From: Mytilisepta virgata
Lineage: Eukaryota > Mollusca > Bivalvia > Mytilida > Mytilidae
DNA: 64,000 nucleotides
Assembly (NCBI GenBank): GCA_028015205.1
Contig: JAPWFG010000022.1
Coordinates: 2,108,001-2,172,000, forward strand
Reading direction: 5' to 3'
Shown: piece by piece, positions 31,001 through 58,000 of the stretch
How positions within the stretch are numbered: position 1 is the first letter of the stretch
Layout of the letters: the number at the start of each line of letters is the position of its first letter
Position numbers and translations under genes: made by a program
The notes under the pieces: model-generated
Database searches by the model: none
What the model saw: the letters and a program-made list of their open reading frames with translations, nothing else
Told to the model about the DNA's origin: nothing

Positions 31001-34000
31001 ATTTTGCCGAAAAGTGTAATTCATGTAAATATTATGGAATTATAAGTAATAAGAGGTGTTTTTCCACAATTCATCGGTGTATAAATTCGACCAGGACTTC
31101 AGTTTGTGAGTGAATTTGTCTCCCTTATACACAGACAAATTGCTTTAAAAAATCGTATTACTATAAGGAGACAATATCCCATCAACTTAACTACTGACGG
31201 ATGATTAAGGATGTTCGCTGGTCATGTTTTGGTCTTTTTGTCAAATGGTATTTGACAAAAATTTTTGAAATCCTTTTTATTTTTTCATACATTTTGAGGG
31301 ACTGAAGTTGTCAATGCAAAGACAATGAAAAATCCAGAGAAAACCCATTTCCTGCAAATTTTCAAGGCTTTATAGCTCTAAAATGAGCACATGAACCTAT
31401 ATTTTTGTCTTGCTTATTTGTTTACTATTCATACGTTCTCTCAACTAAAACACCTATTTCAAATCATATTTATTTCCTAATAGACCAGCGATCATCCTTA
31501 AATGGGTTATTATAGTCAACTTCCAGTGGCAATTATCACATGCATATCAGCACGAGAACATAATACGAACTACATCTGTTTTTTGTACTAGACCGCAGGC
31601 AGGGTGGTTTTTTTAACTAGCTCATAACAGTCTGCAGGAGGACATGTCACCTCACACGGACTCCAAGCTCACCAGTCTTTGCTCTTATTCCTAAATGCCG
31701 CACCAATTTTTAAGTCTGCTTTGACACGACCCCGAATCGAACATTCCGCAATCGAGGCGAGCAGACATTATGCTCGATCGCGTCACTAGACTCAATGAAA
31801 GGCCCACACAAATATTGGTGTCAATTAATCAAAATAATCAACAAACATTGTGTAACAAGTCTAAAAAAATGAAGTTAAAAATACAAAATTCCTAAAAAAC
31901 ATCAGAACATATAATAAGAACTTTAAATATACAGGAGTAGTGTTATAATGATGATTAGCAGCCACTGGAGCGGTGGAGCAGGTGGAGCACTGAGTCTTTC
32001 TTGGAGCGAAGGTGGAGCACCAAGTATTTCTTGGAGCGAAGGTGTACTACAGATAATTTTTTTAGTGCTCTAGGATAGTTTATTAAATTTGTGTTATTTT
32101 ATAAAGTGTGTCCCACTGGAACAAGGTGGAGCACCGAGGTTTTGTGAAGGTGGAGCAGTGTGCTTTACCTGTAGTGCTCCAGGGTTATCTATGATATATC
32201 GGTCAGTTATAGATTAAAATAACAGATTAAAATAATTAGGTTATATAAAAACTTTTTTTTTTCTCATAGAGCAGAGAAGGCTCCAGTCAGTGGTTTTGGA
32301 GGGTTTGTTTCCCGCATAACTCTGTATTTTGTAAACATAAGGTTTTTTAAAAAACAAAATAGACACCTTTGTTGAATAAGAGTCCATACAAGCCTCAGGG
32401 TGTTTTATTTTTTGTCACAAATATATTTATGATAAAATATGAGTAATAAAGTGAAACATTTACATTATCTCGTTTTGTTTGCACCGACCAGAAGTCAAAT
32501 ATATATGCTGTTGTTTAAATTTGGTTTCAGTCCATTTCGAGAGTTGAAGCAGTTGTATCACAAGTCTGAGTTAAGTGTAGACGATTGGAAATTTGAACTT
32601 ATTACAGAGATTGTACAACATTGAGTATGGATTCAGTTTGTTGTTTTTATGATCCCTTCTCTTTTAAACCTGTTCACCAAAACATGATGTATTTTTACAG
32701 TAGAGAACAATCATATGGGAATTGGCCAGATCAACTTGTGCAAAAACCAAGCGATTTAGCACGAAATGGGTTCTTTTATACCAATGTTGGTGATCGTGTA
32801 ACCTGTTTTTACTGTGATATTACATTGAAACAGTGGACTACAAATGACGATATTGAAACTGAACACATAAAGTATGAACCCAATTGTTTGTTTGCTAAAA
32901 TGATATCTAGCAAAACCATATCTTCTATACAGATGACGTCATGACTTTAAATGTTATTAAAGAGATAATGCATACAATAGTTTCATTCAAGATTGAACAA
33001 CCATAGAAGTAACAATGGATAAAGTAGAGAGACTGATGCATCATACGTTGAAATATTTATATGGTAGGATGATTTTAGATGTTCTCCCCAACATTGTTAT
33101 TGCATGTTGTTATGGATGTGAGGTGAACCACCCTAGTCAAGTTCAACATACTTGCTTAATGTGGTCGGAGATGGAGCATTTAGATACCTACTTTGACATA
33201 GCTTACGAAAAGATTAGCCAGAAGGACATAATAAATAAACTCAAACACCAAGTGGATCTGATGGATATATCAAATGACCAAAAGGATGATTTAAAATTGA
33301 ATTTAAAGGACTGGTGCTTGCAACATAAACCAAGTTCAGAGGACATATATAACTTGTGTAGAAGTATGTTGACATTAGAAAATAGATTTGGAGATGAATT
33401 GAATTAGTATGTGACATTTCCATCATTTAACCTTCACTCTTCAACATGAACAGACGAATTTTACAAAACTCGTCTTTCCTAACAGAACTCTATAATGCAC
33501 GACCAAGGAACAGACAACAAATAATTCGTGAATGTTCAGATGATCAAATTGAAACTATTGCGGACATAGCACATAGAATATATCATGGAGTACTGATGAC
33601 ATGTTCCCATCACAGACAAAAACTTCGACAATATAAGATAACAATAAAATCATTAGCTAGTGCAGGAATAAATGTAAGAAGGAAAAGACGAATATTGATG
33701 ATCAACCACAAAGTCATACCACTGTTGATTAAGCCTCTATTACATTTACTAGACGAACAGTGATTAATATATTTTCAATAAATATCAATTCTATTATTTT
33801 GTTTTTCTTGTAATATGTGTAACTAAATCAGTTTGGTATTTCCTTTGAACCAAGGTATACTCTCACCCCCAGGCTTGATTCTAAAGACATACCATACCGA
33901 TAATAAATACATTGAAAAGAGGTCTTACCTGTCATATTGAAATAATAGTCCAAGATGAACACACAAGATTTAATTTTAAACACATATAAAAATACATATG

Positions 34001-37000
34001 CTGGTCCAGAAAAATTGTACAGAATATTAAAAAGTCAAGGTATCACAGACATTGGAAAAGCAAAGATAAAACGTATTTTAAACAGTCAAGACTCTTATAC
34101 ATTAAGAAAAGAACTTCGAAAGTCATTTAAACGAGCACGAGTAGTAGTCTCTGGCATTGATGATGAATGGGACATGGATCTAGCTGATGTCACGAATATT
34201 GCAAGTGAAAACGATGGCATCAAATTCCTTCTAATTGTCATCGACATCTTTTCCAAGTACCTGTGGGTGCAACCGCTGAAAAATAAAACAGCAAAAGATG
34301 TATTACAGGCTCTAAAGCAAGTACTTCAAAATGATAGAACCCCTACAAAAATTCGTACTGATAAAGGGAAAGAGTTTAACAACAACTTGATGAAATCCTA
34401 CTTACAGAGTCAAAATATATATTATTTTACAACGCAGAATTCTGAGACAAAGGCAAATTTTTCAGAAAGAGTTTTAAAAAATCTAAAATCAAAGATGTAT
34501 AGGTACTTTACGGAGCATAGAACACATAGATATCTTGATGTTCTCCAAGACCTTGTAACATTCTACAACGCGACTCCCCATAGAAGTATTCACAACATTG
34601 CCCCCCAAGGATGTCAACAAGGACAACGAAGCAGACATTTGGGCTTATATGTATTTGAAGCCGAAACCCATACGACTGAAAGCAAGGAAATATCTTTTTA
34701 AGAATGGGGACCTAGTTAGAATTTCTCATCTAAGCATGTTATTTGATCGAGCTTATGATGAACATTTTACACGTGAAATATTTAAAGTGAGTCAGAGGTT
34801 TCGAATGCAAACCATACCCGTTTATAAATTAGTAGAGTTTGATGATTCCCCTATCAAGGGTTTATTTTATGAGTCGGAGATGGTTAAAGTTGACAAGAGT
34901 GACGACACCTTATGGTATGTGGAAAAGAAAATTAGAAAACGTAAGCGAAATGGAAGTGTTCAGTGGTTGGTGAAATTTGAAGGATGGCCAGATAAATATA
35001 ATCAATGGTTGAATGAAGATGAAATCATAGACTCAGATGACTCTTGAAGATGAGTATCTACATAACATTCAGCAGTGAAAAATCTTTGGAATATTTTCCA
35101 AACAACAAAGCATATAAATTTTCTTCCCACCTAAATTCACCCTTATTATTAAATGGAAACTGGAGAGTTGCCTTAGTAGAAGCAGAAATTTCAAGTAGTA
35201 TATCCAAATCAGAATCCATTTACCTGTATTCTAATATATGTGGTGAATCTATTGTTGATGGAGAACAAAAACCTCTGCTCAGAAGATTGAGTGCCGTCTC
35301 TATGGGAAACTGGTCAAACATTTTTGAAGTTCCACAATATGTTCCTGTAAAAATAAACGACCTCTATAGTATTGATATTTATATAAGAGATGGTCAAAAC
35401 AATCTGGCTTCATTTTTAGATATTCCTTCGACAGTAACACTACATTTTAAGTCATTTCCATTTTTTTAAAAATGAACAAGATGTATGTACCAAATGTTGG
35501 CCATTGGATTAATTATTATGAGAAGTTAGATAGAAAAGGTCATTACAGTAATTACAAAGATCAAAAACAAATTGGTGGTGGTTCTTTAACTGGAACCCCA
35601 AAATCATTCATGACATCTATCGATACACCAACCAAAACCGCTTCTGATGAGAAAGTGAAAATTCAGCTCGTCTCCCCCGTTCAACAAGCAGACGAGATGG
35701 CTAAGGACATGGTTGAAAGAGAGCAAAAGACCTTAAAACGAAAGTCTACCAGTTCCCATCTCAGTTCTTCAAAAAGACGTCGAACGAGTAAGACCTCTAA
35801 AAGGCCCAGGAAACCTTTAAAAAAGTCGGGTAAAACCTCTAAAGTGTCGAGAAAGACTAATAGAAAGGCGAGTAAGACATCCAGAAAACAAAACAAGAAG
35901 AGTCATACGAAAAGTAAAATCAACAAGAAAAAAGTACAAACTTCTAAGAAAACCCTGAAAGATATACTAGGGTAGAATGGCTGCTCTATCATTAGATGGT
36001 TTCCAAGAAGCTCAACCAAGTGGTTTGGATCTGTTTTCATTACCACCTACACAGACAGCAGTTGATTCTTTGTATTATGATGAACATAGATCAACAGCAC
36101 AGTTAAGTGGAACTGCACCGATAGAATTTAACATAGCAGCGCAAAATTCACTAGAATATATAGATCTCAGAAAAACAAAATTATGTGTAAAGGCGAGAAT
36201 TAAACACGCAAATGGAGACATTCTTAAACCTACTGAGTATGTTGGACCCATTAATAATTTCTTACACTCTATGTTTTCTCAAGTGGACCTAACATTACAG
36301 AATAAGTTAGTGACTTCAACTACCACACATTATCCGTATAAGGCAATGATACAAACACTTTTGTCATATGGATCAGAAGCTAAAGAATCCCAATTAACCA
36401 GTCAGTTATGGAAAAAAGATAACCCAGGGCATTTTGATGACAGCGATGTACAAAATGGTAGCAACACTTCTTTATACGATCGATCACAGTATTTTACTCA
36501 AAGTCAAGTGTGTGATTTAGAAGGTCTATTATTTCATGATTTATGCAGTCTAGACAGATACATGCTGAATCAAGTAGCTATAAATGTTAAACTGTATCGT
36601 TCAAGACCAGAGTTTGCTTTGATGACCAACGAGAGTAATCCAAATTTTCAAATCGTTATTGAAGACATTAGCTTAAAAGTGTGTAAAGTTCGCTTGAATC
36701 CAGCCGTTATTACAGCACATGCACAAAAACTACAATCGACGAATGCTAAATACCCTTACACAAGAACGGAAGTTCGTCTTATTTCTATACCTGCAGGTAG
36801 TCTCAGTTTCAATTACAATAATTTGTTCAATGGTCTTCGAGCAACCAGGTGTGTAATAGGATTTACAGAGTCCAGTAGTTCGAGTGGATCTTACAAGTTA
36901 AACCCATTTAATTTTCAACATTTCAATCTTGGTCAAATAGCTCTCAAACTGAACCAAGTACCAGTAGGAGGAAATGTCATGCAGTTAAATTATGGACCCA

Positions 37001-40000
37001 CGAGTCGTACAATACTACCTGCTTTCAACAGTATGTTCGAAGTGACGAACAAATGGATGAGAGACAGTGGGAATCAGTTAAGCAGAGATGACATAGCAGG
37101 AGGAAACGCTTTATATTGCTTTGATATAGAACCGAATTTCAGTGACGAGGGGCACTATTTAAACTTGGTGAAGCAAGGAACTTGTTCTCTAGAAGTCAAT
37201 TTCAATAAACCTTTACCTAAAGCTACTACTTGTGTTGTGTATGCAGAGTTTCCAGCATATTTTGAAATCAATCAGGAAAGAAACATTATTTTAGAATGAA
37301 TACATACCAGCTACAGTGTGTCATCAGGTCAGACATTGAGCTCCAACAATCAGTTCTCGGTGTATTCTCGTCTGATGAACTGTCTCGCATTCGTTTGCTG
37401 TCGGGAACAGGTGCAATAGCCAATACAGATGTCAAAGGATTACCAGGAAGACATTGGGTAGCGTTTTTCTGTAATAAAAAGAACTCTCTTGAAGTATTTG
37501 ACTCATTCGGATATTCAGACAAAGAACTCGCTGTTTATTTTAACAAGTTCATGCAAAAGTATTCATCTATACTAACAAACGAGAAAAGACTACAAGGTGA
37601 TGATACACTTGTTTGCGGACAATATTGCTTATTTTATTTGATGTGTCGTGTGAGAGGATTTACCATGGAACAGATTACAGATGTGTTTTCAAAAGACTAT
37701 CAATTAAATGATCATTTTGTGTATAGTTTTATAGACAATCGTTTCCATTGTTGTATTAATAATGTTTGCAATGCTTCTGATCAATCTTGTACCAAAATAA
37801 AGAATTAAAACTTATATGTTGTTATCTTTATATATTTAAAGCAGTTTGTCTTTTCGTGTTTTCATTTCATTTGTAACCATTCATAAGTATGGACTGGTGG
37901 AAGACAGAAAGTTTGCTCAAGTTTCAGAGCCCAACCTCAATATTTATTGTTGGTCCATCTAATTCAGGGAAAACGGTGTATACAAAAAATATGTTAGAAA
38001 ATGCAGAGGGTATGTTCCAAACACCACCATCTAAAATTTTCTACTGTTATAGTATTTGGCAACCTCTTTTCGATGAGATGCAATCATCAGTTAGCAACAT
38101 ACAGTTTTACCAAGGTTTCCCAAGTATGGATGTTTTATCTGAATGGGGTGATTTACAAGGACACAAGATAATTGTATTGGATGATTTGATGATGGAAGCT
38201 GCAGATAGTAAAGAATTGATTCACCTATTGACAGTTGGTATTCATCACAACTCTATTACATTGATCCAGATTTTACACAATTTGTACTGTAAAGGGAAAG
38301 CCATGAGAACAGCTTCTCTGAACTGTCATTACTTTATTTTTTTTAGAAATTATAGAGACCAATTACAAATTCAAACCCTAGGTAAACAGATTTTTCCTGG
38401 ACAGTCGAAATTCTTTATAGATGCATACAAGAAGGCGACATCTGTATTATATCGTCCATTAATTATTGATTTAAACCCTCACACTGATAAAACCTATCAG
38501 TTGACAACAGACCGTGGAGTTGGGCAGACACCTATCGTGTATCAACCAAAAGAATGAAGGACTATTTAACACATTTTCTTTTGAAAGCAACGCCTGAACA
38601 GATTTCTCAAACAATCAAATTACTTAACAAAGAACAACTACAATGGGTGGTTGAAATTATATACAATGTATTGCAAGGAGTATGTCCCATTTCAAACGTT
38701 GACAAAACTTTGCTTACCAAGAAGAAGAACGTCATACGTAAAATTATTTCCAAAGAGGCAACACGTACTCAAAGAAGACTATATTTGTTGAAAATTAGTA
38801 GAGTACTCCCTATTTTCCTAAAAGCCTATCTTCGTTATGTCTCGCGAACTGATTCTGATTCCAAAACTGAGGTATGAAAACTTGATAGAAACGCAAATGA
38901 AAAAAAAAGAGCACCACCCAACACAAGACCAAAAACAAGAACATATGACACCATCAAAAAGGTTAGAGTCACTCAAAAAGGACCAAGAATCATCCAAGGA
39001 AAATATTGAAACGTCAAAGCACGAATTATTGGCAAAGGAACCCAACCCTGAAAAAGTTAACAAGTCAAATAAAAAGAGAAAACTTACCCAACATGGTGGA
39101 AATAAACCATATATCTCCATGCCACCTAAAATAATGTTGAATCTACAAAAGAAAAGTAAACAAAGTCCAAAGATGAAATGGTTATCTTTTCAAATATGAC
39201 GTCATTATATCTATTTAAACTACGATCTTCAGTTGTGATTAACAGTTGACAATCATGGCTCAGTCATACATCAATTATGTGTTGCAACAAAATCCTAATG
39301 GTGTTGAACAAAATCAGATCAACGATTTACATTTTAATTCCTCTGATGATGATATGTTAGTGTATGCAGCCAAAGATGTTGAGAATAAACTGAAGCGTAG
39401 GAGAATATGTGGTGATGAACATGTACAAACGAAAAGGATGAAATTTACTTGTGATATATGTAACAAGGAATTTAAGCACAGCAGAAATTTGACTCGGCAT
39501 GTGACTTCACACCTTACAAAACACCAATGTTCAAAGTGTGGAAAATCTTTTACACGGAAATATAATTTATGTAAACATGCAAACAAATGTTCTGGACGAC
39601 AAACATCTAGTAAAGTGGATAAAGAATTATATGATAAACTTACATGTAAACACTGTGATGCTATCTTTGATGATGTCGATTCATTATTCACCCATGTTGC
39701 TGAAAATCATCCAATAAACCAGAGCGGGGGAAGATTAGCAGAGAAACAAACTGAAAGAAAAAAGCCTAAGCGGTTTCGTTTTAAGAAAAGTGCAATCAAT
39801 GAATCTGTAAATCGGACAGACCTTATACCTATAGGAAATGAAAAATATGATTTACTTCAATTTTTGGCCAACGTCAAAGCTGATGTTGAAGAAATACTAG
39901 TATTACAACAAAAGAAACAAAGAAACGTTAAGTGGTATGTTAATGCTCGCGTGGAAATGGTTCGAGATATTGACGACGGACAACAAGAAAAAGCTCATCC

Positions 40001-43000
40001 CCATTTTCGTAGTAAAAGTTACATAGCTCTTCAAAATGAAAATAATGACCATAACTTAAACGAAGCTTTTCAAGCTGTTAACAGAGCAATGGAAGAATTT
40101 ATTCATAAAGGAAGCAATTGGATATTAAACAAGATTGTTTGTCTTGAAGTACATACTTTACCATACTCACCTATAGCTGGTTCAAGTTACATAGAATTAC
40201 CTGAGAACATCGGGAATACTGGTGGAATCATCAACATCAGGAATGATGATCAAAAGTGTTTTCTGTGGTCGGTGCTGGCGGCTTTACATCCAGTTCCATC
40301 ATCAGAACATCCACAGCGAATAACACATTATAAACAATACGAGAATGAAGTCAACATGCAGGATATTGAATATCCCGTGCCTCTTTCAAAGATGGAGAAA
40401 TTTGAGAAACAGAATGATATTTCTATCAATGTTTTTGGCTATGAAAATGAAGAAGTGTTCCCCTTATATTTAACTAAACTTGAGAACAGACACCAAGAAG
40501 TTGATTTATTGTATTTGTCAGCAAATGGAAAGACTCATTACTGTTGGATTAAGAATTTGGATCGTTTTTTACATTCAATGACAAAATTTAGCACAAAACG
40601 TTTTTATTGCCGTAGATGTCTTCATGGTTTCATAAGACAAGATTTATTGGATGAACATAGATTATATTGTAATAGATTTGATTTTCAGAAAGTAACTTAT
40701 CCGAAAGAAGGAGAGGCATTTTTAGAATTCCAAAACTTTCATAAACAAATGCGTGTCCCCTTTGTCATTTATGCTGACTTTGAATGTTTTGCAAAGAAGA
40801 TAGATACTTGCTTACCAGATCCAGATGAACCTTCTACAACGCATCAAACAAAATTTGTTCCTTGTGGTTATTCTTATGTGGTTGTCAGTTCCAACGACAA
40901 ATATTCAAAACCCCCTGTTGTATACAGAGGAGAAAATGCAGTTGAACATTTCTTTGATAACATATTTGAAGAGGAGGAATATATCGGTGATATATTAAGA
41001 AACCCGGAAGAATTAATTATGAGTGTGGAAACAGAGAAACAATTTCAAAATGCTACAAACTGTTATGTGTGCAATCAGCCTTTTTCAGACAAAATAATTA
41101 AAGTTCGCGATCATGACCATTTAGGTTTGAATGAAGATAATAAATCACCAAATTATAGCAATTACAGGGGGCCAGCTTGTTCAAGATGCAACTTGATGCT
41201 AAAAGATCCACCCTTCATCGCTGTTTATCTCCACAATTTACGTAACTTTGACGGACACCTTTTGCTGTCGGAAGCTGGTAAATTCAAAGACAAAAAATTA
41301 ACATGTATACCAAACAATATGGAGAAATACGTTTCATTTTCTATTGGACAACTGAGGTTTTTAGACACATATCAATGTATGAGTAGCTCTTTGGAGACTT
41401 TAGTTGCAAATTTGGCTGTAGATGGGTTGAAAAATTTCAAACAATTTCGTAAAGAGTTTCCCAATGATGAAAACGCTAAACTTTTACTGCAGAAAAATGA
41501 ATATTGTTACGACTATGTGGATTGCAGTGAAAAATTTGATGAGACAAGCCTTCCGTCAAAAGAAGCTTTTTATAATTCTTTGACAAAAGAAGCTATATCA
41601 GATGAAAAGTATCAGCACGCTCAGACGGTATGGAGTACTTTTAATATGAAAACCTTGGGAGACTTTCATGATTTGTATGTTTTGACGGACACCTTGTTAT
41701 TAGCTGATGTTTTCGAAAGATTCAGAGACATGACCCTAGAATATTATAAGTTGGATGCTGCACATTTTTATACTGCACCGGGTTTAGCATGGGAAGCAGC
41801 ACTTAAAATGAGTGGGGTGTGTTTGGATTTGATTACCGACCCGCTCATGTACAACATGATAGAACTAGGAACACGAGGTGGAGTGAGTATGGTTACCAAA
41901 AAATACAGTAAAGCAAATCATAAATATATTGACGATTTCAATGAATCTCAGGAGAAAAAACACATCATGTACCTAGACGCCAACAATTTGTATGGATGGG
42001 CGATGTCACAACCCTTACCCTATGGTTTTTTTCATTTTCTTAATCAAGATGAAATTCAAAATTTTGATTTACAAAATGTCGAAGTAGATGCAAAAGAGGG
42101 TTACATTTTAGAAGTAGACTTAGAATATCCTGAACATCTCCACGATGAACATAATGATTATCCTCTCGCACCTGAACATTTATTGGTTGAAGACAAAGAA
42201 CTGTCAAAATACTCTACACATTTATGGGAAAGGCTTAATACCGTTAAAAATAAGGACGGTGTGGAAAAGGTCAAGCCTAGGATAAAAACACGGAAATTAA
42301 TTCCAACTTTGAAGAAAAAGACAAACTACATATTACATTATCGAAATTTACAACTTTATACAGAATTGGGAATGAAAATCACAAAAATTCATAGGATATT
42401 AGCCTTCCATCAGACGCCTTGGTTAAAAACCTATATAGATTTTAACAGTAATATGCGGAAACAAGCAAAAAACGACTTTGAAAAGGATTTCTTTAAGTTA
42501 ATGTGTAATAGTGTATTCGGTAAATGTATGGAAAATTTACGAGCGCGGATGAATTTAAAGCTAATCAATTCAGAAGACAAGTTAAAAAAGTTGGTAGCAA
42601 AACCATCATTTATCCGATGCCAAATTTTTAATGAAGACCTCGTCGGAGTTCACAACCAACAAATCAATCTCACTCTCAACAAACCTATCTATGCTGGACA
42701 AGTCATATTGGATCTATCAAAGTGGTTGATGTATGAATTCCATTACAAAGTGATGAAACAAAAGTATGGTGAGAAGATCAACTTGCTGTTTACAGACACG
42801 GATTCCTTATGCTATGAAATAATTACAGAGGGTGTCTACAGAGACTTGGGAAACATGACAGACCTGTTTGATACTTCAAACTATGGATCCTACGACAAAA
42901 CAAGACATCTTTTTAGCAACAAAAATAAGAAAGTTCCTGGAAAATTTAAAGATGAATTAGGAGGTATGCTTTCTTTTACAACATTTATTTTTCTTTTCTT

Positions 43001-46000
43001 TAAAAATTTTCACAAAAATTTTATTTTCTTTTAAAATTTTAACAAAAAAAAAATTCTATTGCTATAAAATTTTCCACAATTTTTTTCTTTTCTTTAAAAA
43101 TTTCCACAATTTTTTTTGCTTTTCTACAAAAATGTTCAATTTTTTCTTTAGTATGTTACAAATTTCTCACAAAAGTTTTCCTTTTCTTCAGATATTTTCT
43201 GAAAATGTTCTGTTTTTTCTAAACCTTTTCACAAAAATTTTCTGTTTTCCTAAACCTTTTCACAAAAATTTTCCTTTTCTTAAGAAATTTTCACGTTTTT
43301 CTTCAATTTGTTAAAAAATTTTCTCAAATTTTTTTCTTTTCTTAAGAAATTTTCTGACAATTTTCTGTTTTTCTAAACTTTTTCACAAAAATTTTCTGTT
43401 TTCCTAAAAATTTTCACAAATTTTTTCCTTTTCTTAAGAAATTTTCAAGTTTTTCTTCAATTTGTTACAAATTTTTTCACAAAATGTTTCCTTTTCACAA
43501 AAATTTTCTGTTTTTTTTTTTCCCAGGTGTACCATTGAAAGAATTCATTGGTCTGAGACCCAAAATGTACAGTCTTTTGTATGACGAGCCAATAAAAACA
43601 GAATCCGGAGAAAAGACAACACGCGAAAAGGAAAAGAAAGTTGCTAAAGGAATATCAAAAACAGAAATAAAACGGACTCTACGCCATCAAATGTATAGAC
43701 AATGTTTGATTGATGAAAAAACTACCATAAATTCAATGACGAGTATAAGAAGTACAAACCACGAACTTTTTATGGACACCATTGTAAAAAAGGGACTGTG
43801 TAGCTTTGATGATAAACGCTACTGGAAGAATGCCGTTGAAAGTTATGCCTATGGACATTATAAAATTGATAAACAGTATTAAAGTTACTATTTATTGTAA
43901 ATAAATATGTTAAAGAACTAACCGTGTCTGATTATATAATCCATCACTAAAACACTATGTATGTGTCCTCACACTAAAGTTCACAATAATTGTTACATTG
44001 TCTGAAAAAGGGCCTGCACTTCTTCTTCTGACATCTCGTACAGTTCAGTTGGAGCTGGAGACAAAGCCTCATACCTTGACATTTTTGAGGGTTGTGTAGC
44101 CTCAATATCTGTCAGATGAGGTCTTTTGCTCACTCTAATAGGAATGGGGATACTAATCTGTGATTCCACTCTTTGGAAACAAGGAATGTTATTGGCATCT
44201 AGGATTACCGGTCCTGGAGTTGGTGGAGGTGTCTGTAATAATGAAAATAAAATAAGAATAATATATAATAAAAATCATGGAGGAAGATCCTACTTTATTT
44301 CAGTCTCTAGTGACTTGAGCTTTTCTGGTGAGACAGGTATAGATGAAACACGCGTTAGACATATGAATTTAACCTAACGCATCAATATTCTAATTTTGTT
44401 TCCCAATATATAAATATCCTTGAAAATAATGTCTACACGATGACATTCAGATGATATTCGAAAATATTTTAACTCTACGCAGAGTATACTTACAAATGGT
44501 GCTGGTAGAAAGGATTCTGAGGCCACATTTTCTATTTTTTGTGGTGTTAATGGGTGTGGCTGCGGTCTGGCGTTAGATGTCTGAAATAAAGATATATATC
44601 TTAAGACTTTTAGATGAAGTAGCTAAAGTAATTGAAAACGTGTAATGGTTTTAAATAAAATAAAGTAAAACTTACAAGAGTATCTCATGTGAAATATGAC
44701 ATATATTTTGAAATTAAAAACTATGAGACCATAGATAACTAAATATATAATACCAATAATTAAAATGTAAATGAACTTACTGTTGCTACCGTCGTAAAGA
44801 GTGTGTGTCCATCTGGTTGAGGGTGGATATTTTCTTTCTGAAAAATATAAATATATATATATATCTCAGAGATTTAAAAACTTGAAATATATACACAGTA
44901 AGGAAATTGAAAACAGAGACCATAAATTACATGTATATAGGGTCTCTGTTGAAACACATGGAAATTAATGCAGATGCATCTATATCGGTTTAAAGTTGGA
45001 TTTCAGTAGAGCAAACGATCACTTTAAAATATTGTAAATAAAGTATTTATAAAAAAAAAAAGAAAAAAATGACTGAAAAAAAAACAACAGAATATTGAAG
45101 TAAGGTACGTTATCTACGTGTATTAAATACATACCTGCGGAAAACATGCAGTAAGTGATTCTAGTTGCCCTCTCATGTCAAAGAGGGTGTCTAACTCATC
45201 CAGACGCAGATTCACTTTAGTATGTCCACTGGAAATATCTAGGTAATAAAATCCTCCGGCAGACTTTTTAAATGTGATGGATTTTGAATTGAACCTACCG
45301 AAATTGGCAGTAAACTCTATATTTCCATTTTTGTTAACCGACTGGTAAAAAGCAGTGTGGGATGCCATCATAGAGTCACGGTAAAATAAAAGGAACTGTA
45401 AGTTAACGACGTTGAAACCAAGGAGTCAATATTGATGAAGTCCGGGTTACGATTTATATACCCTTCAGTTAATAAATTGTTTTAGTGAAATAAATAATAG
45501 CCACCAATGGTTGAAGGTTATTCTATTTGATAAGAATTTGATATCGGGTGGGGGAGGGGAAAACATTTCAAAGTTTTAGAAGAGACCGTGTTATCTTTAC
45601 GTGATTTCGGTAAGGAGGGGTTATCATCATATATCCCAATGATTTAAAATTGTCAATTTTCAACCCCGACCAGGTTAGGTAACAACTGACGGAGGAATTC
45701 TTACATTCTAGTGCAATTTGTTAAATGTTTCCACTCTACGTCTATATATATTACGCTGCATATGGCGGTGCTCCTAATAGAGGAGGAACATACCTAACAA
45801 ACAAACCTAACATTAAATCCCTGATTTATATTACTATCTAATATTTTCTAGTATTTGATATTTTCATATAGTTTTAATAAATTCTATTTTTAATAAATTT
45901 ACATCTTTTATCAAATATTAGTTTTTACAGAACCCCTTTCATTAAAATTGTAAACCCCCGCAGTTTTATGCGCATGCGTATAACGTAATGTTTATTGTAC

Positions 46001-49000
46001 AAACGAGAAGAGAAAAAATGGCGATCCTAATAATAATAATAATAATAATAATAATCATTTATTTCAGACATAAATAGTCCATAGTTATATACAAATATAA
46101 TGAAAATTTTAAATATACAAGATGAAAAATGAAGAATTAAAATACCAATAAATATAATTAGAAATTCAAATTTAATAACATGTCAGTCAAAGTTCACATA
46201 AATTTCAGTGTACCATTTTCTAAGTAAAGACGAACTATACCATAAATCACTACCAAGAATAGTAAGAACAAGCTGATTATCAGACTGTTGCAAACGTTTA
46301 TACAAACTATAGATAGTTTTACGTCTCATTTCCTGAAAACATCTTACATCATTCCTGACAAACATACCACTAGCACTACATCGTGAACTGAAACCCATCA
46401 ATATTCTGAAAGCATTATTATACATTATTTTCATTTTGGTAAGAGACGCTATTCCACAGTTGGACCATAATGACACACAATAAATATTCATACAATAAGA
46501 CTGAAAGAGCTGTATTTTAACATCAAATGAACACTTATTAAATTTACGTTTCAGCATATTAACCTTTCTACATATGCTTCGATATTGTCTTTTGATATCG
46601 CAATCATCATTCAAATCATTACATATCATATGACCTAAATACTTAAATTCATCAACAAATTCCATCACACTTCCATTTAAATAAAACTTGGGAATGTTAT
46701 AAATCTTCAAAAATTTTGTCTTAAAAATCATACAAACAGATTTTTTGGTATTAAATAATATATCGTGTTCATTAGCAAAGTTTTCACATATGGATAAAAG
46801 TTTTCTCAAACCTGCAACTGATGGACTAATAATACACATATCATCAGCATAACAAAAATTATTTAGCGGCACTCCATTTAAAAAACAACCAACATTGGCT
46901 CCAGATAACGCTTTGTTCAAATCATTAATATAAAAATTGAACAGATAGGGTGACAAGATACCCCCTTGTCTTACACCATTACGTACATTAAATTCATTAG
47001 ATGTGAATTCACCCCACTGAATACAATAAATCTGAATATCAAACCATGACATCAGAAAACGAACAATAAAAACTGAGATGTCTGTCTGTAGTAATTTGTG
47101 CAATAAAGTCCAATGATTAACTCTATCAAACGCCTTGCGTATATCTAAGAAACAGGCAAACACAGGACTGCCATGCTTTACATAGAAAGAAACAATTTCT
47201 TTAAAAACGAATAAACACAAGTCAGTAGAATGGCCATCCTTAAAACCAAACTGATGGTCACTTATTAAAAGTTTATCTTGCATTAAATTCAATAAGTACT
47301 TTTCAATCACTTTAGATAATATAGAGGTCAATGCAATCGGCCTATAGTTATCCTTGTCTGTGAGATCACCAGATTTAGATTTCGGAATTGGTACCAGCAT
47401 CACTCGAGTGAAGTCCTTCGGAATAACACAGTGAATTAACATAGAAGACAATAGCAGCGATAACAACACAAATAAAATATGAGGGGCATTTTTCAAGTGT
47501 TCTGCAGCAAGTCCATCACTGTCAGTTGCTTTTCCGGAATGTAGAGTATTTACAATGGACTGAATTTCTTCTACAGTTGTAATAGCATCATCAGAAATAG
47601 GGCACACCTTTAAGCTTTCTTTTACAGAATTCTCGTATTTGTTATTGTTCACAGAGTTCAATAGGCCATTAAAGTGATCTCGCCACATTTGTGCAATTTC
47701 ATACGAACCAGTTGCTCCGTGCACTGATTGCGATAAAGGGGTATTCTTATTATTCTCTTTATTAATTCCATTCCAGAATCCACGCATGTCCTTATTTTTC
47801 AATTTATCAGCCAAAGCATCAGCTTTGTGTTGATCACTGTCAATTTTACACTTTCGTAAAGCATACTTGAACGACAATCGAGTTGTATTCATCAGACGAA
47901 AAACAGGTCCATATCTCGGCTTTCCAAATGACTGCCACATCAAAAAAGCTTCTCGAGCCATATCATGGGATTCTTTGACATGTTCATTCCATCCAGGTAT
48001 GATATTGAAATAACCAACTTTATCTCTGCTCAATGAATCACTTGCCTTCTTAATTGATTCAATAATGTCTCTGTAAAAATTTTCTATAGAGGTACGATGA
48101 GATATATTAGTACAGTTCATATCTCGACACTGAAAACAATCCGCCGGTAAATGAAGATCATAAAGGAGCGCCGATAGATTATTCCGATATAAATTGATGT
48201 CCATGTCGGAGCACTTGCACCAGTTGATGATTTTTGGTCGTTGCATTCCTTTTCTACTGATCAAGCTAGTATCGCATCTATGTAATTTCAAAATGTTAGT
48301 TGAAAAAGACATTGGAAAGTGGTCGGAGCTTACAAAGTTAGTATGCACTTTTATATCACTGATCGATCTGTGACTAGATGTTGTGCTTACAATATGATCA
48401 ATCCATGAAACAGTTCCATGCGCTTCACTAAAATGCGTAAAAATATTAGAATTTTCCCCTAACAAACGAATATCACTGACAATATAATCTTGTTCGTCTG
48501 TAAAGTTTCTCAATTCACTGCCAAATAAAGTTTCACTTGACCCAGCATTCCAATCCCCTACAACAATTACATTGGGTGTCTCAGCTTCTTCTATAATACT
48601 ATGAATTTTACCCAAATATTGAATAAATTCTAAGTAATTGTCAGCACAGTCAAAAGGTAAATAGACATTAATAATAAGTAATTTAAACTGGTCAGCCTGT
48701 ATCAAAACACCCATAATTCTTGTATCTCCATATTCTATAATTTTACATTTACAACATAAATTTTTACGCCATAAAATAGCTAACCCACCATATGGTCTAC
48801 CACAATAAATTAAATTAGAATTCATAGATGAAATACCTTTTCCCCAAAAATCCGGATGTAAATTATTTAGTTTAGGTAATTCAAAATCATATAGCCAATG
48901 TTCTTGCAACAAACAAATATCGTGATCACCTAACAACTCAATCACAGAATTAACATTTAGATTCAAAGATCTACAGTTATAAGACACGACGTTTAATAAT

Positions 49001-52000
49001 TTATCTTCTGTGTCCATTATTTTTATTTTCGAAAAACTTACGCACTAGAACACATTCAGGCCAATTAGATGGATTCAAGAGTGTATCAAAAAATCTTATA
49101 TCTGACAATAACTTAAACGAAGCATATGTATCATACTTTGTTACCAGTTTCTGACATTCCACTGTTATGTTGAAATTTTCTTTCACAAAAGCTTCAATAT
49201 CCCTGCTCGAAGTTGAAGGACTAAGACGAGAAATAAACAAAGAAGATTTTGCACGGACTCCTTTCAGAACTGAACTTCTTTTAGTACCAATGACCACGGC
49301 CTTCGAATCATGTGAAAAACCGACTCTCGAACGATTATCTAATTTATCCAACCTAGGCGAAGTTATGGTCGATTTACTTGGAATTTTTTTTCGCATTTTT
49401 ACGATGGTAAAATCCTGATCAGATGTTGGAGAATTCGAACTCTGTCGAAGAACATCGGCATAAGTAGATTCGGGCTTCAAAGAATTTGTGATTCCAGACG
49501 ACGTTATGAAACTGTCATCAGCCACTACAGTTTTCAACTCTGTCAAACTAGCATCCAATTCAGTTGATGAAGCGTCTTCCTCATTGACCTCAATATGACA
49601 CGCATTATTATTTTTGGTTTGTGTTTGTAAAACTGAATGTTCATCCCTATTACCTTGTCCTTGGCTATCTCTCATTTGCCGAATCAATTCCAAAGAACAT
49701 TTCTGACTCTCGGACAGAACTGACATGTTAGACTTTAAAAATTCAATCTCTTTCATCAAACTTGAAACATCAACATGATCAAAGCTTACAGACGGAAGTT
49801 TCGATATATCACGGGCTACAAAACATGGAACATCGTCAGGGTCTGTATTGTGTATAACAGTCAGAATATCCTGTAAATTAGATTCATTTTTCTTCGGTCC
49901 TTTGCGTGGAATACAACGCACATTATCAGCACACAAATCATAAAGCAAACGTTTAGACTGTTCTATTTCCGACTCCTGAAAATTTTCTTTGCACAGTTTT
50001 ACCAACAACTCATTAGGTAAAGTATTAATTTTGTTTATAATAAAACATAGAAGTTCATTGATGATAATATCAGGGGTTATAGATAGTTCTTGTGACTTTG
50101 TTATCGCCGGAGTTCCATTTTGCTTTGGAAACAACGGAGTATCCATCTTGGAAATCTTTTATGACGTCGTTAACGTAGAGACGGCTAACATGTAGAAAAC
50201 AACAGACCGCTTAAAAATCTCCAAATCAATGATTCGGCAAACGCAAAAAAAAGATAACGTTCAAAAACTTACAATGTCTTAGTAAATTAACATCCCTGCA
50301 AACTATGAAGCATGTACGTATCCAAAATTCACAGAAAATTCACTTTTTTTCAGGAGCAAATTTCAGTTTCAGCCAGTCACTTTGCCTGACGTCACAATCA
50401 TATTTAAAAATTTTCAACTTTGTTTGTATTAGTATTAAGTTGTTGCTGTGGGTTTGAGCTGAACAAGAAATCTTGTGATGTTGTGGAAGACAACCAATAT
50501 CGTATAAGTGAGCTACGGTGTACATTCCATGGGGCTGGACTGTATAAGTTCGAGACAAGTGAATCGCTAGCCTCGGTTAGAAAGTTGACCATGGATCGAC
50601 TATCGGATGACAGCTTTTTGTTAGTCAACAAACCACCAGCCACCCTCAAACATATTGAGATTCAACATGGGACTTGTGACCGTGTATCGGTACCCCAAAG
50701 CATAAGAGTAATTGTCTCCGGGCAGATTTGTGTAAGTTATTACCAGTTCAGTAGTTTTGTTTAACTCCTTTCTTTTTAAAAAAAAAAAAAAAATTGAACA
50801 ACAATACATGAATACAAGTGCCACTCCTTTTGATTTCAATGTATATTTTGGGTTGTTGTGTCAAGGCTGCTTACTCCATATCCCTTCTTTTTAATATTGT
50901 GTGTGTTAAGTCATCTTTCCTACCAACACAGGGGTCAACATAATTATAATGAAAATGTATGAATAAACCAGTCAATGTTAGCATGAACTATTTTATGAAG
51001 AAATAATTTCACCTCTTATGAGTTAAAAAGAATATAATACAAATTACATGTTTGAAATTACACTTTTTTTTTTTTTTTTTTTACAGTCTTATACCAGTGA
51101 AAAAAAAACAGCAGATCCCAAGTCAACACAAGTCCATAGTGCATCTACTGTGACTGAGCCACAGCTTCCTCGTAAGACGGTGGAGATGACATCCGTTGAG
51201 CAGCACTCTGACTCAACACATTCCCAAGACGAGGTGGGTCTACATTTACATCTTCTTGAGACATTTCCCTTTGTCTTCTTATTATATACCCTCTTAATGT
51301 TATTCTAATAAGAAAAAAAAAAAAAAAGAATTGTTACAAAATAAAATTTGTACTAGAGTTGACTAAATTTTCATTTCTTTTTGTTATTTTTATATCATTT
51401 ATATTTTTTTTTTTTTAGATTGACACTACACAGATACCTTATGACCATATTGACACTACACAGACACCCCATGACCATGACAATACAGAAGAAAATCTAC
51501 CATGGATTGTGACAGCAGTAACATCCATAGCAGGTAAATTCATAATGGTTACATTTATAATTGTAATTTTGATATCTTTTGGTTTTTTTTTTTCTTTATT
51601 TTTTGAAATTACGAAGGTTAAATATCTTTAAATAGTGAACTGATCGAGATGAATAGTCTTTAAATGTTTACAGTATATTGAAAGAAAAAGATAAACAATT
51701 ATATATTTGTTATATCGTAAGAATTTTGAAAATTAGTTATTATAATAGTATGACTTCAATGTTTTTGTTTTTTTTACACATTTTATCAGTCTTTTGTAAC
51801 ATAGAAATGAGCAAGCTTAAATTAAAAATAAATCATTGTGTTTTGTTGTAGTGCAAGTAGTAGTGATAATAGTACTTTGTGTAAAAAGATGCACGAGAAA
51901 GAGACGGAAGAATAGTGCACTTTTGGAGGGGGGAATACCTTTTCAAGAGGTTCCTACACATCCTAAGATGTGGTAGTTTATTAAAGAAATTTAATTTTGG

Positions 52001-55000
52001 TTGAGTAAAACAAGTTTAAAAATAACCTTTTTTGTCTTTCAGTACTACTTTCGGTTTTGGTGGGTATAATTATTTGGATCAAAAGAAGACAGGTTATTAC
52101 TGCTCCATCTCAAGATGAACTTTATAATGCTGCTTGGTTTTCCTTAAGTGATTAACTATTTTTTTTTTTTTTGATAATTTCAGAAATCATTTTCATGTCC
52201 ATTGTGACACTAGTGTTAGTACTGGACAATATTTATCGTCAGTATAGGCGTTATTTTCGATTACTACAAAACCTTCCTCCAATGGTGCACTTCCTACAAC
52301 CTCCACAACCCAACCCACCACAACAGATTCCTGAACCTCAGCTTAGAAGAAGTAATAGACGTAGACAACCTCCTAATAGACTTAATTTATAATTACCTGT
52401 CTGTAGTCGTTTTATTTATCATTGCTTCAATATTTAGTGAGTGTGATGTGTTCACCCTTTTGCATTGTCTCTTCAACTCCATTAAAGTTAAGGCACTTAA
52501 GTTTTCTAACATGATCTTTTTAGCATCTCTGTTCAAATGTAATAACCCATGGTAAATGTTTGACACTTCTTCCTGCATATCTGAGAAAAGATGGAAAGGT
52601 TGATTTTCTTGCCATTTTTTCATTTCTTCCTCTATAGCATTCTCTTCACTACATCTGTGGCATGGTAAATGATTTATATTTACAGTGTTTTCCTGCATTA
52701 TAACACAGACTGCCTCAAAAATTTCATCTTCCCTATTTGTAGCCATTATTACAATCCTACACAAATGAATATAATATAGAACAAATAGAAATCACTAGTT
52801 ATTTCAAGGAATTCAAAATCATAAATGAACCTTGGTGATCACAAATCTTTTGTTGTATCTATGACAAGATATATCTTTAAAGGTTAATATTAATTTATCA
52901 GTGGCATTTCTGTAATCCTATTAAGGTTTTTTTGTGTTTTATCTCATGTTCTCCAGTTTTTGGAATCATAAAAATAAAAATGATAAGTCAGTCAGAATTA
53001 TCTAATTTTTATGATTAGGTAGATAACTTTAAGGTGTGTGTGTTTTTTTTTTATTTTAAGAATTACATGTATGATGATGCATTATAAGAATTACGTGTAT
53101 TATCATGATAATATACTTTTAAATTTTTCTCTTGAAATAAATTCTTACTGATCTTGATTAAGTTTCAATGATCTTAAAGGTTTCAGTAACTAATCTATTT
53201 GGATATGTGTTCAATTAGTATCTTTGAGAATTTTTCTGTTCATTAGTAAAGCTGGAACATACTAGTGACAAGATCTATACAAGCTCTCATGTTCTTCAAA
53301 CATTTACTCCACATCTAATTTTGATTGCAATTATATTCCTAATTATAATTTCTCAGTCTAGACTTAGATAATAAAACAACAATGTAACTTAGACACATTG
53401 TAATTTCTTAATAATGTATTATAGAAAATAGAATTTCTATTGTCATGTCTCATATTATATCCATAATTATAATTTCTCAGTCTAAACTTTACTTTTAAAA
53501 TGATAAAACAATTATGTATAAATTTATCCATATAGATAGACACATTACAATTTCTTACTAGTATATTCAATGAAATAATATTTTAGTCCTGATAATATTT
53601 AAGTTTCATGTATATAGTTTTCTTTTTAATTTTTAGTATGTAGTATAGAAGTTTTGTTTGTAATAATTTTTGTAGTGAACCACTAAGTAGTTAGTATTTA
53701 GATACTACATATTTCTCATATATTTACCTTCTATGGTTTATCTTGCCTATGATTTTATGTGTGGCTCATGTGTTTTATATATTATACCTTTTATCTTATG
53801 ATGCTCATGAAAGATTAGTGCTGTTTAAATACTTTGAGGTTTTTTGTTAATGTTATACATTAGTTTATGTATGACCTATATGTTGTCAAGTGTCTCATTA
53901 GATGAATAAACACAACTTGTCATGTTTGTAGTTTTGAAGTGCAATACATTAGAGTATAAAATATAGTCAGCAATATGAAAGAAATCCTCAAATGATAAAA
54001 TTCATATATATTAGTTATCGAACCAAAAAGTTAGTCTTTAAATAATGCTTTATCATTGTGCAATATAGGCAACTTGATATTTTTATAAGTTATTTGTTGA
54101 AATTCTGATCTCATGTTTATTATCATTACAGTTTAATATTGTTTTATTGAAGAAATACTCAAAAGTCATAGAACAAATATTTTATATACATGTATCAAAC
54201 ATTTCATGATATTACCTATTATATATACTATTAATCAGTTTGAGTGTGTGTTGGTGTGACATAAGTTTTCATTTAAATCATTAAGATTTGATTGTTTTAG
54301 AATCAAACATTCCATTTTTGTGATTTTATCTATATACTGTTAATATCTGGTGCTATTTTAATACAAGTTTTAGACTGAAACCTTCCATTTTTGAGATTTT
54401 ATCTGTTATATCTGGTGGTAATTTAATACATGTTTTAGACTGAAACCTTCCATTATTGAGATTTTATCTGTTATATTTGATGCTATGTGTTATGTGTAAA
54501 GGTTGTTTTTATATTTAAAACATCAGGGATATATAAACTGTTAATTGTTTGTGTGGGTGTGTGTGTGTGTGTCTTATAATACCAATGTTAGCAAAATAAA
54601 GTATACATATGTTACTATGAGTGTTCTTAATTTGAGAAAATTATTTTAAAATCTGGTGGTTATTCACAATACAAGTTTTAGACTGAAACCTTCCATTATT
54701 GAGATTTTATCTGTTATATTTGGTGCTATGTGTTATGTGTAAAGGTTGTTTTTATATTTAAAACATCAGGGATTATATACACTTTTTTATATTTAAAACA
54801 TCAGAGATATATAAACTGTTAATTGTTTGTGTGGATGTGTGTGTGTCTTATAATACCAATGTTAGCAAAATAAAGTATGTACATATGTTACTATGAGTTT
54901 TCTTAATTTATGAGAAAATTATTTTAAAATCTGGTGGTTATTCACTTGGTATCTGTCAGTCAGTCCCATACACACAGTGAAAAGCCAACCCAAACAAGTA

Positions 55001-58000
55001 CAGAAATTTATTTGTATTTGTTTAGAATTTGTCCGTCTGTAATTCTCATACAAAAACCACAACCCCAAATTCTGTGACGTGGAGACAAAATGGACGCCAC
55101 CCTCAAACATACCCTTGTCACTAACCAACGGAAAAACTCAATAATCTTTAATGTTTCTAGTCTTATTTCCCATCACTTGGTGTCTGTCTAATAGATTATC
55201 ACCTATAAGCTTTATCTATTTATAGTATAGTACACCATCGTATTGTGTTAACAAAAGTGATGTGTGTTGGAATAAAAATACACATACATTTTTATTTTGT
55301 AAAAAGAGTGAAAACCAACCCAAAACATGTAAAGAAGTTTAGAAATATTTTAACAGAAATACTGTTAGCCCTTGTATTCACTTGGCATCTTCAGTCAGAC
55401 CCTCCCATGCAAATAACTATTGAACACATGTATTAATCTTAAAAACAAAACAAAACAAAAAAAAAAAAAAAACCTCTCAGTCTCAAAATTGTAATCACAG
55501 GAAGTATTTTGTATAAGTTGATCTGGCCAATTCCCATATGATTGTTCTCTACTGTAAAAATACATCATGTTTTGGTGAACAGGTTTAAAAGAGAAGGGAT
55601 CATAAAAACAACAAACTGAATCCATACTCAATGTTGTACAATCTCTGTAATAAGTTCAAATTTCCAATCGTCTACACTTAACTCAGACTTGTGATACAAC
55701 TGCTTCAACTCTCGAAATGGACTGAAACCAAATTTAAACAACAGCATATATATTTGACTTCTGGTCGGTGCAAACAAAACGAGATAATGTAAATGTTTCA
55801 CTTTATTACTCATATTTTATCATAAATATATTTGTGACAAAAAATAAAACACCCTGAGGCTTGTATGGACTCTTATTCAATAAAGGTGTCTATTTTGTTT
55901 TTTTAAAAAACCTTATGTTTACAAAATACAGAGTTATGCGGGAAACAAACCCTCCAAAACCACTGACTGGAGCCTTCTCTGCTCTATGAGAAAAAAAAAA
56001 GTTTTTATATAACCTAATTATTTTAATCTGTTATTTTAATCTATAACTGACCGATATATCATAGATAACCCTGGAGCACTACAGGTAAATCACACTGCTC
56101 CACCTTCACAAAACCTCGGTGCTCCACCTTGTTCCAGTGGGACACACTTTATAAAATAACACAAATTTAATAAACTATCCTAGAGCACTAAAAAAATTAT
56201 CTGTAGTACACCTTCGCTCCAAGAAATACTTGGTGCTCCACCTTCGCTCCAAGAAAGACTCAGTGCTCCACCTGCTCCACCGCTCCAGTGGCTGCTAATC
56301 ATCATTATAACACTACTTACAGGGCCTCGGTTCCACTACAAACACTCATACGACTCTGGTCTTATTGTTCTCTTGACGTCATGGACCCAGTCTCGATCGT
56401 AGCTATACGAATGTTTGTGAATCAGGGCTTTGGCTTGAAACACGAATAACATGTGGTAGGAAAACAAGATTTTGAGTATCCCTCAAATCATAGATCAGTA
56501 GTAAAATAAAGCCAAAACAATAAAAATAATTATAAATGAGTTCCAATAAATAATTGTATTGGTAATTTTGGATCTGTAATGAAAAATATTTACTAAAAAT
56601 TCGAAACTGTAGGCGAGAGAAAAAAAAGTAATTTGTAAACTTATAGCTAGTTCAAAGTTGGTTCTTTGTAATTATTCTATGTTAGTTTGATAAAATAATT
56701 TTATTAAGAATACTAAATATTATTTCCTGGTTCCGTAAATACTAGAAAATAAATTTTTTCTACTTTCTTTTTTTTCTCTTTTTTTAAAATATTTATTATA
56801 GCACAGACTGTACAAAACACCAGCCCTTGCATTTATATTATTTTTTTTCAGATGATACTGTTGGTAAGGTTGTATTGTCAATACTAGGAATGCACTCTCT
56901 CATCTGACAACACATTTTTTTCTGTGACTATATTGGTCATGTATACTTATTAAGATTAAACGTTGAAGGCAAATTGGTTCACTGATACAGTATACATAAA
57001 ACACACATTTCGTGAGACGGGCTTCCATTTTATGGGAAGACAGACCCTAATTATCCAGAGCGGCCAGCTAGGCAATGGTTTATATTTTGAATTTTCTATT
57101 GGCTTATATTTCATGGGCATAAAGTGTTGAAACATCTCTATGAAATAACAGACTATATTTCACATGCATTCAGGAAGGCATTTTCAAAATATAAACTAAT
57201 AAAGTGTTAAAGTATTGTCCTTTTTAGCTAATAAACCTATATAAATTTTGTATATTTAATAGGTTGTGCTGTTGGTAAGTTGATTGATAATACAGTAGAA
57301 TCTCGATTTCTCGAACTCGAAGGGGTCTGTAAAATTAGTTCGAGGCATCGGTAGTTCGAGCCATCCAAGTCCAGAAAATTATCGGTTACGAACCAGCAAT
57401 AAATTTGAAATTTAATGTACATCCATTTATCTAGAATAAATCACCGAAAAACATCAAGTGGATTATCAATGACCTGTAATTGACAGTTAATTACCTTCTT
57501 CTAAATCAATGATCCGACCTCTGGTTTTTTACACTTATTGACATTTGTCGCGTACGCCAATTCAAAATGGTGTTCCAGTTACTGAGAGTAAAATTACATT
57601 ATATTACAGTTGTACGGACCAGAAAATTAGTTCGAGAATTTGAGAAATCGGTGTTCGAAAAACCGAGAGTTAATTTACATAGACACAATGGAAACAATGG
57701 CCATACTTTCGTAAAGGGTCGAGAAATCATTTAAGGAAAATATTTCCTCGTTGAATAAAACCTACATTTTTAACACATTTTGAAAGCGACATGTTTTGTT
57801 TCATAATTTGTCAACTTAAAAGCTATAGGCTCTCGGGAGCCTGTATCACTTACATGGATTTTACTTGCTATTGAAGTATTTGTCAATGGACAGAAAGTAA
57901 ACTAAATCATGTTGCAGTTATAATCATCTTGAATAATACCTTACAATGAGCATTCACAACAAGTTTCAATAACATGTATATGATGTAACAAGTCATTTAA

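Follow-up and report, generated by a model that had tools for sequence, protein, structure and literature searches.

The stretch analysed here (hereafter the window) comprises 64,000 nucleotides of the bivalve Mytilisepta virgata (assembly GCA_028015205.1, contig JAPWFG010000022.1, positions 2,108,001 to 2,172,000, forward strand). Between positions 31936 and 56317 it holds a 24.4-kb Polinton, and this element encloses a gene for a predicted membrane protein with three alternative tails, which we call A, B and C. The gene and the element that interrupts it are laid out as follows:

46032..50410 (about), minus strand: long interspersed nuclear element (LINE) in the signal-peptide part of exon 1, with open reading frames (ORFs) at 46183-49017 and 49001-50146
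50411..50731, plus strand: rest of exon 1, encoding the end of the signal peptide and the ectodomain; phase-0 donor gtaagt after 50731
51087..51233, plus strand: exon 2, Ser/Thr-rich stalk, phase 0 to 0, donor gtgggt
51419..51533, plus strand: exon 3, remaining stalk and first half of the transmembrane helix, phase-1 donor gtaaat
51534..51628, plus strand: hydrophobic read-on frame past the exon-3 donor, 32 codons including the split one, possible remnant of a fourth tail (X)
51852..51976 (stop included), plus strand: tail A, second half of the helix, Cys/Arg-rich stop-transfer segment and GIPFQEVP..PK end
52043..52155 (stop included), plus strand: tail B, second half of the helix, KRR and acidic DELYNAAW
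52184..52392 (stop included), plus strand: tail C, second half of the helix, Pro-rich with a basic C-terminus, LRRSNRRRQPPNRLNL

The stalk part of exon 3 carries a 30-bp tandem repeat, and the first half of the helix reads PWIVTAVTSIA. The single phase-1 donor at 51533 faces three acceptors, at 51852, 52043 and 52184, and each tail follows a pyrimidine-rich AG in the matching phase and consists of a hydrophobic run, basic residues, a tail of its own and a stop. The exon coordinates, phases, stops and three different tails drawn in an initial annotation of this DNA proved right to the base. The three-tail gene is a real gene structure, and its alternative same-phase tail exons are conserved in related copies.

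The three tail starts fall inside 333 bp. As a model of chance we used 1 Mb of order-2 Markov DNA built on the window, in which tail-like frames in the relevant phase occurred 79 times, with zero triple clusters within 400 bp. The same scan of the real window found 15 other tail-like frames (6 on the plus and 9 on the minus strand), one of them at 52407, directly after tail C, so that a lone tail-like frame is unremarkable. These single same-phase frames and the T-rich introns are what one would expect if the tails were hydrophobic frames of intron DNA that happen to follow an AG. Such an origin is nevertheless scarcely credible, given that 1 Mb of simulated DNA held no triple cluster, and it is already contradicted by the conservation of the tails at the protein level in other lineages.

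That conservation is clearest in a distant copy of the gene elsewhere in the genome (L050; L numbers denote related places), whose exon 1 is 41% identical to that of the window. Tails A, B and C are all present there, in order (tblastn with composition correction off, E 6.5e-9, 5.4e-9 and 4.1e-11, respectively), and blastn of this copy against window positions 44000-57000 gave no match of 60 bases or more at E<=1e-8. Over the aligned A, B and C codons, the two copies differ at 40 second positions vs 86 third positions, as counted on protein alignments. Profiles built by leaving out one lineage at a time recovered tail A in 6 of 7 lineages (E<=3e-5), tail B, the best recovered of the three, in all 7 (worst E 5.1e-6), and tail C in 4 of 7 at E<=1e-5, L055 being marginal at 3e-4. 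The lineages were the window, L047, L050, L051/L052, L053, L055 and L058/L060 for A and B, and the window, L050, L051, L053, L055, L056 and L057 for C, and the profile databases were small (87-1152 frames). Because the lineages had been preselected for tail-like frames, this is a test of homology and not a survey. Among the 32 fetched regions, A, B and C are all open and in order in seven (L031, L032, L033, L050, L053, L054 and L055); in L047, A and B are accompanied by a C that is partly out of frame, and L051, L052, L058 and L060 show subsets of the tails, for the last two because the fetched sequence stops short. The frames, whose loss in related copies the initial annotation had named as its own refutation, are thus kept in distant lineages, though many copies are damaged.

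The exon ahead of the tails ends in PW[IV]...G followed by the donor GT, in phase 1, in the window, L047, L050, L051, L055, L057 and L058. In these seven lineages the intron would therefore split the helix, and any tail would restore it. The mechanism that we propose is that this one donor, in mid-helix, is joined to any of the three tandem acceptors, each choice completing the helix and adding a different cytoplasmic tail. A is rich in Cys and basic residues and has an end of P[LF]Q.VP type, B is acidic and carries an aromatic motif of [YF]N..W type, and C is Pro-rich and basic at its C-terminus. In several lineages, keeping the intron or using one more acceptor would yield the fourth tail X. 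The gap from the B stop to the C acceptor measures 10-54 nt in the window, L050, L047, L053 and L055, which is presumably too short for a separate 3' end, so B and C, at least, would most plausibly use alternative acceptors within a single terminal exon. ATTAAA or AATAAA hexamers occur in some gaps, and for A and X a separate polyadenylation (poly(A)) site is possible. The likeliest mechanism thus appears to be the choice of alternative 3' splice sites inside one terminal exon, over separate poly(A) sites.

It could also be that just one tail is used, probably C, the longest and last, and that A and B are relics or cryptic exons. All three junctions are predicted from DNA, and in L036/L037 A and B are damaged and C is still open, which fits this idea. 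Yet A and B hold their acceptor, phase, frame and motifs across lineages whose DNA no longer aligns, and B is the tail best recovered by the profiles, which makes the use of a single tail improbable in our view.

The copy in the window is interrupted, which the initial annotation had missed. The inserted 4.4 kb carries reverse transcriptase and endonuclease domains and sits in the signal-peptide codons, and related copies are free of it: L001 aligns to 44546-46031 and L003 to 44544-46031, and both continue directly at 50411. When a target-site duplication was sought around the LINE, nothing longer than 7-base words came up. Because the LINE inserted at 46031/50411, exon 1 of the window copy has no ATG, and this copy is unlikely to make a normal protein. 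In L031 and L032, longer pieces of the L001 and L003 places, exon 1 opens with an ATG and a hydrophobic, signal-like stretch, and uninterrupted copies of the gene are present in the genome. By hydropathy, the signal-like N-terminus proposed at first fits the related copies; in the window copy it is interrupted.

The encoded protein would have a signal peptide, an ectodomain of ~95 residues with four cysteines, a Ser/Thr-rich stalk and one transmembrane helix. The four cysteines are invariant in 8 aligned sequences, 3 of which come from the window's own clade, and the hydropathy of related copies fits a signal peptide and a single helix, in keeping with the type I membrane layout (signal, ectodomain, stalk, helix) first suggested. 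Against the protein database, exon 1 found no match at E<=10 and the 8-sequence alignment none at E<=1; Pfam and PDB sequences gave no significant family for exon 1 or the ectodomain, and IMG/VR gave no match. Since the searched collections may hold few animal sequences, absent relatives are weak evidence of novelty. In the tails, the [YF]N..W motif of B is kept in the window, L050, L060 and L047 and not in L051, L053 and L055, and, as its first place may be Y or F, it is more suggestive of docking than of a strict phosphotyrosine site. The end of A, of P[LFM]Q..P type, is kept in the window, L047, L050, L052, L055 and L060, and the basic end of C, which we take to resemble the polyprotein ends of some retroelements, in the window, L050, L051 and L053. 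The likeliest function, which we suggest only tentatively, would be that of a surface protein facing the host, with tails that direct it to different compartments or partners, or that signal.

A surface protein of the virion or its envelope, an attachment or fusion factor with tails varying for assembly, would be another use for such an architecture. Candidate envelope glycoproteins are mentioned in adintoviruses (PMC11071296). However, the ectodomain is small for this role at ~95 residues and has no significant Pfam or PDB match, and a spike would presumably need no multiple tails on one ectodomain. We consider a part in the virion quite unlikely.

The placement of the gene in a Polinton, also proposed initially, is borne out by the other features of the host element:

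31936..32745, plus strand: left terminal inverted repeat (TIR), ~0.8 kb, with the target-site duplication (TSD) TACAGG just outside at 31930-31935
33949..34701, plus strand: integrase (rve), PF00665, E 1.5e-9
37296..37808, plus strand: adenain-like (C5) protease, PF00770, E 2e-6
37889..38557, plus strand: A32-like packaging ATPase, PF04665, E 5.9e-5
55507..56317, minus strand: right TIR, with the TSD TACAGG at 56318-56323

The TIR arms are 99% complementary and the 6-bp TSD TACAGG flanks both ends, as in Polintons, and the integrase, protease and ATPase expected of such an element are all found by Pfam. In all of these features the element agrees with known Polintons (Mavericks) of adinto-like type. 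The ORF at 39246-43034 is a candidate for the protein-primed DNA polymerase B; Pfam at E<=0.01 gave zinc-finger families and one unknown family for it, and the PDB matches listed (60 of 72) are zinc-finger. The candidate for the double jelly-roll major capsid protein, ORF 35977-37299, had no significant Pfam match and no match in IMG/VR.

Other features were observed in the element. An array of ~30-bp tandem-repeat units (42988-43510) interrupts or ends the frame of the polymerase candidate, and related repeats occur in L016-L018 and L020/L021. A frame opening within the left TIR encodes a BIR (inhibitor of apoptosis) domain (32597-32944), and the right TIR repeats its first part (55395-55655). 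Tail to tail with tail C, a minus-strand frame of 123 amino acids (52393-52764) shows a weak, non-significant likeness to poxvirus Bcl-2-like proteins (E 0.049).

Across the 1.03-Gb genome, exon 1 gave 112 matches at E<=10, or 106 once fragments less than 1.5 kb apart were merged, many of them weak, broken or partial. The three-tail gene is a gene family, not a single copy. With the ATPase as a marker of Polintons (150 of 468 candidates scored), an ATPase match was found no more than 25 kb away for 36 of the 112 exon-1 places, vs ~0.8 expected under an even spread. Nineteen of those 36 sit on the same strand, 6-10.5 kb downstream of the ATPase, a range picked after the data were seen; the distance is 12.5 kb in the window, with its LINE, and in C4. 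At these 19 places, identity to the ATPase of the window goes from 100% down to 58%, and the four with the most diverged ATPases (C1, C5 twice and C7) have an exon-1 E of ~1-2 and count mainly by position. The remaining 76 places have no listed ATPase match nearby, and for 23 of them sequence was in hand.

These data bear on a further possibility, that a Polinton captured a host receptor gene with spliced tails, which now mimics, or serves as a decoy for, a receptor that the host still has. The several introns and the receptor-like architecture would agree with this, and the 23 of 76 ATPase-less places with sequence were scanned for tails, not for a host gene. Still, no significant relative outside this genome appeared in Pfam, PDB or the protein database, which may hold few animal sequences, and the distance between gene and ATPase is similar in elements whose ATPases are 58-100% identical to that of the window, which argues for long residence in Polintons. 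Capture of this kind seems unlikely to us.

Some exon-1 places show other arrangements. On contigs C29, C37, C7, C13, C8, C14, C81, C32, C11 and C6, exon-1 fragments form fifteen inverted pairs that face outward at a spacing of 8-13 kb, two of the pairs sharing one fragment. L029/L030, the one pair that was examined, forms a 99.6% inverted repeat along all 3.27 kb compared, so that a long TIR of some element may contain exon 1. Contig C6 makes up 5% of the genome and holds 35 of the 112 exon-1 places. In L020 and L021 the ATPase is 96% identical to that of the window, yet exon 1 is much diverged (54%, one internal stop); L020, the one of the two that was scanned, has no tail frame, which would fit a swap of the gene from one related element to another. 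One related copy has a possible frame problem in exon 2, either real or an assembly error.

A further phase-1 frame, X, lies ahead of tail A in L051-L055; in L053 the exon ahead of it was not found. Reading on past the exon-3 donor gives an open, strongly hydrophobic frame in the window, L050, L051, L055, L058 and kin, that is, in 5 of 7 lineages, vs 1-3% of chance sites (32 of 2753 in window-like DNA and 71 of 2145 in T-rich, intron-like DNA), so X may be an unspliced output. Its length is not stable in the window clade (32 codons in the window, 23 in L031-L033 and 45 in L036/L037), and the hydrophobic read-on of L050 has 56 codons. The acceptor-based tail finder detected no X in the intron of the window. 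A more ambitious proposal, which we find possible and would not yet favour, is that an ancient Polinton family carries a multi-output surface receptor with four ancestral tails, three made by tandem 3' splice sites and one unspliced, each selected for a different host pathway.

We put at roughly 0.75 the probability that this Polinton lineage carries the locus as a standing accessory gene, which would encode a type I membrane glycoprotein with splice-swapped tails. Several results pull the other way. The three-tail layout is known from genomic DNA, its junctions are predicted, and all related copies were drawn from one genome. Tail A of L053 is unrecognised by its profile, the best match there (E 0.0032) being the B frame. 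For tail C the score is borderline in L055 and poor in L056 (E 0.007), and in L057 (E 0.49) it gives no sign of the tail. The A and B profiles partly match each other's frames (B profile against the A frame of L058, 1.2e-4), so weak profile scores carry little weight. The codon-position test is singly significant for C alone (A, p=0.06; B, p=0.14), and the other fetched regions are damaged, incomplete, not covered to the end, or hold fewer tails or none. As for X, the read-on past the donor is not hydrophobic in L047 and L057, and by profile the X tails of different lineages are not established as homologous. Lastly, signal peptide and helix are assigned by hydropathy, and the single-sequence structure model of exon 1 is unusable (predicted local distance difference test, pLDDT, 34.5).

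Comparable proteins exist in other systems. The E3/CR1 proteins of adenoviruses, a related DNA virus group, are accessory type I membrane glycoproteins with a single helix and tail motifs, made from a spliced region; E3 makes different proteins, whereas the Polinton gene would put one ectodomain before several tails. No Pfam match linked the ectodomain to E3/CR1 or another known surface-protein family (best E 0.066 in 8 members, non-significant). Dscam and CEACAM1 are host receptors in which one ectodomain is joined by splicing to alternative membrane or cytoplasmic ends; no sequence relation to them was found, and unlike them the Polinton gene lies on a mobile element, with tandem terminal acceptors that split the helix. 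Nematode Mavericks are reported (Widen et al. 2023, cited in PMC11071296) to carry a membrane glycoprotein too, a fusogen, from which the Polinton gene differs in its small four-cysteine ectodomain and the absence of a fusogen family match. Among the titles and abstract openings listed from a collection of literature that lacks many journals, none on Polintons or adintoviruses describes a membrane gene with alternative tails.

To our knowledge, Polintons are usually read as capsid-building transposons, with few host-interaction genes known. If true, a conserved accessory membrane protein with interchangeable tails would suggest that Polintons have long been active on host cell surfaces. The short conserved motifs (P[LF]Q.VP, [YF]N..W and the basic RR.R.RRQP.RLN end) would make host partners directly searchable, and the effects of Polintons on animal cells would become a testable question.

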